This document shows positions 12,348-13,974 of a stretch of DNA of 64,000 nucleotides, in pieces. Both the position numbers and the translations under genes were made by a program. Positions within the stretch are counted from its first letter, which is position 1. Each line of letters opens with the position of its first letter. The notes beneath the pieces are model-generated. The model did not search any database. It was not told the DNA's origin and was given only the letters and a program-made list of their open reading frames with translations. Source of the DNA: Sphaerochaeta pleomorpha str. Grapes (lineage in GTDB: Bacteria > Spirochaetota > Spirochaetia > Sphaerochaetales > Sphaerochaetaceae); the NCBI RefSeq assembly GCF_000236685.1, contig NC_016633.1, forward strand, positions 3,229,815 to 3,293,814, given 5' to 3'.

Positions 12348-12905
12348 TTATTCAGTCTGTTGCGCAGTGATAAACGTGCGGACACGTTCGGAAAAACTGC
12401 CTGAAAGGGTTACGGCAACGATCAGTTTGACCGTATCGCCAATCAAGAAAGGAAGCATACCTGCCTTGATCGCAGGTCCCCAGCCCATCGAGAGGTTTAG
12501 CTTCAAGAAGGGTACCCCAATGAGGTAGATGGTAATAGTGCCTGCCAAACCGCCGAGAAAGCATCCTAGGGCATAGCTTTTTTTTGTACCCGCTTTGTAC
12601 CCGATATCACTTCCGATACCGACGATAAAGGCAGCAGGGAGCAATGCAAGCAAATATCCGCCGGTAGGCCCGAGGAGAATTCCTATTCCTCCCCCGGAGG
12701 TGAAGACAGGCAGTCCAATGGCTCCCAGCAAAAGATAGATTGCTGTTGCCAATGTGCCAATCTTCCTTCCACCCAGCATGGCTGCCACGAGCACAAACAT
12801 GGTTTGCAACGTGATGGGGACAGGAGGAAGGGGGAACCTGATATAGGCTCCTACGATGATAAGGGCACTGAAAAGCGCAGTTAAAATAGTTTTTCTGTTG
12901 TTCAT
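12348..12905 (-). CDS. bioY: Biotin transporter S component
   Basis: BioY is the substrate-specific membrane subunit of the ECF biotin uptake system. The 185-residue protein has about six hydrophobic helices. It also carries the family segments IRFPLPPVPITLQTMFVLVAAMLGG near the N-terminus and GPTGGYLLALLPAAFIVG in the middle. The frame extends to 12959, but the promoter and BirA-type operator show that ATG 12905 is the start. The gene is divergent from birA, and the 94-bp gap holds both promoters and the operator. No ECF A or T subunit is encoded nearby, so it must use a shared energising module or act alone, as reported for some BioY proteins. Confidence 0.94.
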   Translation of the reverse strand: MNNRKTILTALFSALIIVGAYIRFPLPPVPITLQTMFVLVAAMLGGRKIGTLATAIYLLLGAIGLPVFTSGGGIGILLGPTGGYLLALLPAAFIVGIGSDIGYKAGTKKSYALGCFLGGLAGTITIYLIGVPFLKLNLSMGWGPAIKAGMLPFLIGDTVKLIVAVTLSGSFSERVRTFITAQQTE

Positions 12906-12911
12906 GGGAAA

Positions 12912-12941
12912 ACCATAGCATAAACGGATTTTTGTTGTAAA
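12912..12941 (-). promoter_or_regulatory. Leaderless promoter of bioY
   Basis: TTTACA (12936-12941, minus strand), an 18-bp spacer ending in an extended TGC, and TATGGT (12912-12917) lie 6 nt before the ATG at 12905. The -35 box is inside the left arm of the BirA-type palindrome, so a bound repressor would block polymerase. Confidence 0.7.
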
Positions 12942-12959
12942 CCATGTTTTGGTTGACAA
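12935..12959. promoter_or_regulatory. BirA-type operator between bioY and birA
   Basis: The inverted repeat TTGTAAACC-N7-GGTTGACAA matches the half-sites of known BirA operators (TTGTAAACC...GGTTTACAA) with one mismatch. It lies exactly between the divergent biotin genes. The spacer is only 7 bp, compared with about 14-16 bp in described operators. The site covers the bioY -35 and ends 5 bp before the birA -35. Confidence 0.75.
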
Positions 12960-12964
12960 TCCAC

Positions 12965-12993
12965 TTGCCCCTCTTTGCCTGTTTCGCTACTAT
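12965..12993 (+). promoter_or_regulatory. Leaderless promoter of birA
   Basis: TTGCCC (12965-12970), a 17-bp spacer and TACTAT (12988-12993) are followed by 6 nt and the ATG at 13000. There is no Shine-Dalgarno. This position rules out the longer frame starting at 12949. Confidence 0.65.
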
Positions 12994-12999
12994 TTTGCC

Positions 13000-13974
13000 A
13001 TGAGTACCGTACAAGACGTCCTTGCTTTCCTTCATATCCATGAGGATACCTATGTTTCCGGCCAGCTGATCGCCCAGAACCTGGGGATAAGCCGCAGTGC
13101 CATCTGGAAAGCCATTGAGTTATTGCGTGATGAAGGCCATAGCATCGATGCGGTGACGAACAAAGGGTACCGCCTTATGCCCAATCTAGATGTATTGGAT
13201 AAAAACCGGCTTGAAACCCTGTTGGGCGGTTTTCCCGTGCATCTTTTTGATACCATCGATTCAACCAACCGGTTTGCAAAACAGCTCGCAGCCGAGGGTT
13301 CTTGCCACGGGACGGTAGTAGTTTCTGCATCCCAGAGCCAGGGGCGTGGCAGGCTAGGCAGGGAGTTCTCAAGTCCCAAAGGTGGCCTGTATATGAGTAT
13401 TATACTCAGACCCAGGTGTAAAACCGAGGAGGCCCTGCTTGTTACCAGTGCTGCCGCGGTTGCCGTTGCCCGAGCTGTTGAAAAAGTCTGCAACCTGGAA
13501 CTGGGGATCAAATGGGTCAATGATCTGTTCTTCAGGAAAAGAAAAGTGTGTGGTATCCTTACTGAGGGTGTTATCGATTTTGAAGCGGGGGTTCTTTCCT
13601 CCCTGGTCGTTGGTATCGGGTTGAATTACTCGACCCCCTCTGCGGCCTTTGAGGCGAATCTCAGGTCGGTTGTTACCTCCCTTTATGATGGACCTTCCCA
13701 GGTTCCTCCTTTTCTGGATGCAAACGTATTGGTCGCCGAGATTGTGCGCACGGTTGTATCGCTCAGTGACCTGCTTCCCGACCGTTCATTCCTTCAGGAA
13801 TACCGCGACCGTTCTCTTGTACTGGGCAATACGGTTTCGGTTGTCCAGGCTAAGAAGACAAAGACTGCCTTGGCCCTGGAAATCGATGACGATGCCCATC
13901 TGGTCGTCGAATATGGCGATGGCAGCATAGAGTCGCTTGGCACCGGGGAAATCAGCATCCGGCTTGATGTATGA
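13000..13974 (+). CDS. birA: Bifunctional biotin-[acetyl-CoA-carboxylase] ligase and biotin repressor
   Basis: BirA attaches biotin to carboxylase carrier domains and, when loaded with biotinyl-AMP, binds DNA as a repressor. The 324-residue protein has an N-terminal winged helix (about 1-60, VSGQLIAQNLGISRSAIWKAIELLR). The ligase core follows, with the biotin/ATP loop GRGRLGR at 115-121 and GIKWVNDLFF further on. A small C-terminal SH3-like domain completes it. The DNA-binding domain and the adjacent BirA-type palindrome together indicate that it represses bioY and possibly itself. Confidence 0.95.
   Translation: MSTVQDVLAFLHIHEDTYVSGQLIAQNLGISRSAIWKAIELLRDEGHSIDAVTNKGYRLMPNLDVLDKNRLETLLGGFPVHLFDTIDSTNRFAKQLAAEGSCHGTVVVSASQSQGRGRLGREFSSPKGGLYMSIILRPRCKTEEALLVTSAAAVAVARAVEKVCNLELGIKWVNDLFFRKRKVCGILTEGVIDFEAGVLSSLVVGIGLNYSTPSAAFEANLRSVVTSLYDGPSQVPPFLDANVLVAEIVRTVVSLSDLLPDRSFLQEYRDRSLVLGNTVSVVQAKKTKTALALEIDDDAHLVVEYGDGSIESLGTGEISIRLDV

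Follow-up and report, generated by a model that had tools for sequence, protein, structure and literature searches.

We found that a 25-bp inverted repeat at positions 12935–12959 of the window, the 64,000-nucleotide stretch of the Sphaerochaeta pleomorpha str. Grapes genome analyzed here, is a putative lineage-specific operator of the divergently encoded biotin protein ligase/repressor BirA, with a spacer of 7 bp (N7) in place of one of 13–17 bp; we regard this reading as highly likely. Judged by sequence comparison, the repeat appears to be a genuine operator variant, of a known type and shared across the clade, which is moderately surprising. Our literature search found no paper on BirA in Sphaerochaeta.

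The Palindrome between bioY and birA

The palindrome, TTGTAAACC-N7-GGTTGACAA, has no strand of its own and consists of a left half-site TTGTAAACC on the plus strand (12935–12943), which carries the bioY -35 element on the minus strand, a 7-bp spacer ATGTTTT (12944–12950, no strand), whose length is fixed and whose sequence varies among relatives, and a right half-site GGTTGACAA assigned to the minus strand (12951–12959), where it is read as TTGTCAACC. An earlier, sequence-only reading of the window had given both the sequence and its coordinates exactly. Its placement of the site between divergent bioY and birA genes was borne out by Pfam matches on both flanks. On the minus strand, bioY (12348–12905, ATG at 12905) encodes the substrate component of a biotin ECF transporter (PF02632, 1.6e-38); on the plus strand, birA (13000–13974, ATG at 13000) encodes a group II biotin protein ligase/repressor with HTH_11 (PF08279, 3.6e-14) and BPL_LplA_LipB (PF03099, 2e-16) domains, the only birA match in this genome.

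The N7 palindrome occurred at one place in the window with no mismatches, and 0.07 occurrences with up to three mismatches were expected in each shuffled sequence. Over the whole 3.59-Mb genome, 12935–12959 was the sole instance of TTGTNAACC-N{4-30}-GGTTNACAA, with none in the control. No other N7 palindrome with zero or one mismatch was found genome-wide, and the 14 others with two mismatches, against 19 in the control, corresponded to background. As in BirA operators, the inverted half-sites match TTGTNAACC and GGTTNACAA exactly, the site overlaps the -35 element of the promoter of a biotin uptake gene, bioY, and the genome encodes a cognate BirA with a DNA-binding domain, PF08279 in the product of the divergent birA. 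The 7-bp spacer, however, lies outside both the published 14/15 bp and the 12–17 bp found by wider sampling, and the site was therefore classified as a variant of the BirA operator and not as a standard member.

Conservation of the 7-bp Spacing

The birA loci were gathered at the levels of genus, family, and phylum, and all were oriented with birA forward before scanning. In the genus, birA was found in 24 genomes, and each of these had a site with exactly N7, as did all three genomes of a related genus, g171; the site was divergent from bioY at every one of these loci. The genus set includes a public Sphaerochaeta record (L114), whose site and birA are the same as those of L077. Across 20 non-redundant N7 loci, GTAAAC (columns 3–8 of the left half), GGTTGACAAT, and the right half-site GGTTGACAA (20/20) were invariant; the information content of the spacer was mostly 0.1–0.5 bits per column, climbing to 1.0 beside the right half. 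The BirA proteins of the compared set fall to as little as 43% identity to that of the window, and the retention of N7 despite this divergence indicates long-term selection on the spacing.

When the half-sites were slid over spacings of 0–24 bp, 6.8–7.0 of 7 positions matched at N7 and no more than 3.4 at any other spacing. This result bears on the idea that a standard-spaced partner half-site is hidden nearby and that the N7 pairing is incidental, as is seemingly the case in the Clostridiales G450, where TCGTCAACC-N16-GGTTGACAA overlaps an N7 pair. In the N7 clade, neither half averaged above that level of 3.4 at spacings other than 7, and a hidden partner is barely conceivable there.

In L079/L080 (G426), the birA matches formed two fragments of 205 and 149 aa that are not in the same frame, with the N7 operator intact; this birA may be frame-shifted or badly assembled.

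Spacing in Other Lineages and Origin of the N7 Form

At the bioY-birA junction of other genera of the family, identical half-sites were found at N13 (L186–188), N14, N15, or N17, the last in two genomes of genus g6 (L200 413 and L201 401). Brachyspira (name inferred) had N14 and, once, N15, and in one clostridial family 22 of the 24 best dyads had spacers of 12–16 bp, with a mode of 13. Among the matches listed for exact extended half-sites in 398 Bacillota genomes, 63 of 75 were at N13–16, and none of the seven palindromes spaced 3–11 bp lay at a biotin gene. The published BirA operator consensus, in the form quoted in PMC545781, is TTGTAAACC-[N14/15]-GGTTTACAA (Rodionov et al. 2002). The sequence-only reading had described known sites as having the same half-sites 14–16 bp apart; the half-sites were indeed the same, but the range was too narrow, as spacers of 12–17 bp occur. 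It had also proposed a search for the 7-bp spacing in relatives and had counted normally spaced relatives as evidence against itself. N7 was uniform in the genus and in g171, and normal spacing was confined to other genera; normal spacing elsewhere thus points to a switch and not to an error.

Two further observations were made in genus g6. The 17-bp spacer of L200 and L201 exceeds the published consensus and equals N7 plus almost exactly one helical turn. Directly upstream of birA in L054 and L197, three crowded half-sites were seen, ATGTAAACC[CT]GTTTACGATAT[CT]ATTGTAAACC-ATG, in which the inverted halves abut (N0) and a direct repeat lies 23 bp apart, unlike the usual BirA dyad.

The same comparison speaks to the possibility that the palindrome is read by another repressor. 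A spacing of 7 bp is indeed outside the known BirA range, but the half-sites fit the BirA consensus, the adjoining birA encodes an intact HTH, this locus holds the only such site in the genome, and sister genera have standard BirA sites at the same junction, which together leave another repressor very improbable.

On the BirA tree, the N7 label needs two changes, and a single N7 origin was not rejected (AU p = 0.26). We consider it most likely, from the sequences compared, that the spacing of the BirA operator was reset in an ancestor of the N7 genera. A search of 84,980 genomes with a strict N7 pattern returned 62 matches, against about 60 expected by chance on our own estimate. Four were at biotin genes, namely two Sphaerochaeta-type loci (L104 and L114), L121, and L138/L179. 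Because the total is close to chance and, beyond the Sphaerochaeta-type loci, biotin genes had only the isolated L121 and the ambiguous L138/L179, no clear independent second N7 lineage emerged. Three candidates were set aside. In L121 (3016–3040), from a Eubacteriales MAG, an N7 palindrome lies 62 bp upstream of bioY and congeners are without it. In L138 (4138–4162) and L179 (226–259), both of the Clostridiales G450, the sequence upstream of bioB-bioY is TCGTCAACC-TTGTCAACC-N7-GGTTGACAA, which the standard N16 pairing overlaps and which can be read as either N16 or N7. An N6 candidate in L156 has two mismatches and may be due to chance.

Promoter Elements at the Site

The predicted bioY promoter of the window, on the minus strand, has a -35 element TTTACA (12936–12941) within the left half-site and an extended -10 element TGC.TATGGT (12912–12920) 6 nt from the ATG, giving TTTACA-N18-TGC.TATGGT-N6-ATG. 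The same layout was seen in the 26 N7 loci, in which TTTACA of the left half is followed after 17–18 bp by a TAnnnT -10 element, usually extended (TGn), and after a further 5–7 nt by the ATG. The claim that the site covers the bioY -35 element was thus upheld across these loci. For birA, TTGACA of the right half has the position (N16–19) of a likely -35 element in 16 of the 26 loci. In the other 10, the window included, the birA start is too close to it or too distant, and GGTTGACAAT is unchanged. The birA promoter of the window is more likely TTGCCC-N17-TACTAT-N6-ATG (12965–12993, plus strand), with a likely -35 element TTGCCC (12965–12970) 5 bp downstream of the right half-site and a predicted -10 element TACTAT (12988–12993) 6 nt from the ATG, a layout shared by relatives.

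These positions allowed us to weigh whether the palindrome is a by-product of promoter structure, with divergent -35 boxes, TTTACA for bioY and TTGACA for birA, that resemble BirA half-sites by accident. The left half does coincide with the bioY -35 element in the 26 loci, and the right half is suitably positioned for birA in the 16. However, GGTTGACAAT is invariant even in the 10 loci where TTGACA cannot be the birA -35 element, the conserved stretch exceeds the hexamers, the boxes are always 7 bp apart even though divergent promoters have no need of one distance, and sister lineages hold identical half-sites at the standard BirA spacing. An accidental resemblance is accordingly quite improbable. 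Conservation of the right half where it cannot serve birA as a -35 element calls for something besides RNA polymerase to read it, for which BirA would be the obvious candidate.

A published signature of leaderless genes is a TAnnnT box some 12 bp ahead of the start codon (PMC3160421). Because the position of the TAnnnT boxes fits this signature, the bioY and birA transcripts are both probably leaderless (12903–12920, minus strand, and 12988–13002, plus strand). Several N14 relatives have apparent Shine-Dalgarno leaders, in contrast to the 5–7 nt between the -10 element and the ATG of bioY in the 26 N7 loci.

Geometry of the Site and Features of BirA

Geometry was computed from half-site center to half-site center at 10.5 bp per turn. 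The N7 centers are 16 bp apart, corresponding to 1.52 turns and a phase of 189 degrees, and those of N13–N17 are 22–26 bp apart, corresponding to 2.1–2.5 turns and phases of 34 to 171 degrees. The N7 phase thus lies just past the normal range, and the half-sites are about 20–33 A closer along the axis. Since the normal spacings alone span about 140 degrees of phase, mobile DNA-binding domains are implied. The sequence-only reading had put the change at roughly one helical turn, which applies only relative to N17; relative to N14/N15, the spacer is 7–8 bp shorter, or 0.67–0.76 turn. Its further claim that the two DNA-binding domains are placed closer together follows from the center distances of 16 versus 22–26 bp, on which the BirA domains would have to sit differently.

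The window BirA looks canonical, with the N-terminal winged HTH (residues 5–58), BPL catalytic domain, and C-terminal domain of group II biotin protein ligases. In a PDB sequence search, S. aureus BirA was the closest match (1.4e-36), and E. coli BirA was also matched. The AlphaFold model (pLDDT 87) matched the fold of both 2ewn and 6ndl with Z of about 30 (30.7 to 2ewn, with an rmsd of 5.8 A across 310 residues). The rmsd to the E. coli and S. aureus proteins was 5.8–7.3 A over the whole chain and about 2.2 A over the core, a gap suggesting that the HTH is swung on a hinge. A control model of BirA from a genus with N15 gave a whole-chain rmsd of 7.3–8.1 A and was thus equally displaced, so that the placement of the HTH is no mark of the N7 clade. 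The monomer fold was therefore discarded as a source of the 7-bp spacing, the N7 and N15 models having no explanatory difference. A change in linker length was likewise discarded, as no indel separates N7 from N15 BirAs, which differ only at scattered residues.

The core of the recognition helix, SRxA(I/V)WK, is common to N7 and normal-spacing BirAs, which fits the unchanged half-sites. The most N7-specific residues of the DNA-binding domain are E40, present in 26/26 N7 BirAs versus 1/15, and D or N at position 44, present in 24/26 versus 0/15. Both lie where the recognition helix ends (birA codons 40–44, 13117–13131); they are near-fixed in the N7 clade, and relatives with normal spacing seldom or never have them. 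As possible determinants of the spacing, E40 and D/N44 offer a lead only.

Proposed Mode of Regulation

We propose that abundant biotin would lead BirA, charged with biotinyl-5'-AMP, to occupy both half-sites. Bound BirA would cover the bioY -35 element and so switch off biotin uptake, and it would also cover the birA -35 element or the DNA just upstream of it, depending on the species, so that birA would be at least partly autoregulated. The closer placement of the DNA-binding domains would be expected to come from re-oriented, hinged N-terminal domains, possibly touching each other, on an ordinary core. It might be reached by a re-set hinge, by assembly on DNA as in S. aureus BirA, or by an altered dimer interface.

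Occupancy of the two halves need not involve a modified dimer, if BirA monomers, or one domain from each of two dimers, were to fill them separately. In S. aureus, monomeric BirA binds DNA and the protein assembles there, even on a single half-site (PMC6391492), whereas B. subtilis BirA shows no half-site binding (PMC4016012). Strict adherence to 7 bp among genomes so diverged that BirA identity falls to 43% speaks for simultaneous, cooperative contact, and separate filling appears unlikely. For contact by one dimer, we suggest tentatively, as possible rather than probable, a compact DNA-bound BirA whose domains are 1.5 turns apart and probably touching, and not extended as in E. coli, with the geometries of repressor and operator having co-evolved in one step.

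Comparison with Known Systems

The S. pleomorpha site shares with the BirA consensus of Rodionov et al. (2002; quoted in PMC545781) identical inverted half-sites at biotin gene promoters; it differs from it in having 7 bp and centers 16 bp apart in place of 14/15 bp and centers 23–24 bp apart. In Desulfovibrio, too, a BirA site lies between birA and a divergent biotin operon (PMC545781). The E. coli bioO-BirA system resembles the present one in that one operator serves divergent promoters and is read by a group II ligase-repressor of the same fold, but bioO is not known to control birA itself. The spacing in bioO is 16 by our own count. The BirAs of S. aureus and B. subtilis have control of bioY in common with the window BirA, and that of S. 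aureus is its closest solved structure by sequence. The palindromic elements of B. subtilis are reported to be spaced differently from those of E. coli (PMC4016012). Our literature search on the S. aureus and B. subtilis proteins found no report of a 7-bp form.

BirA is a textbook case in which ligand-driven dimerization is coupled to the binding of DNA, and the spacing of its operators has been treated as nearly fixed. A clade with N7 and unaltered half-sites provides a natural experiment on the ways in which a dimeric repressor can alter its geometry and still function, and close relatives are available for comparison at spacings of 13, 14, 15, and 17 bp. The existence of this clade also implies that such sites escape motif models in which the gap is fixed at N14/15.

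Outside the BirA family, CytR, of the LacI family, likewise meets very different half-site distances by means of mobile DNA-binding domains (PMC3454398). Its spacing varies within one genome, whereas the BirA spacing stays constant inside a lineage and switches from one lineage to another. Another parallel is the GlcC motif, in which an orthologous factor recognizes the same half-sites with a class-specific spacer length in each lineage (PMC5343134), although GlcC belongs to another protein family.
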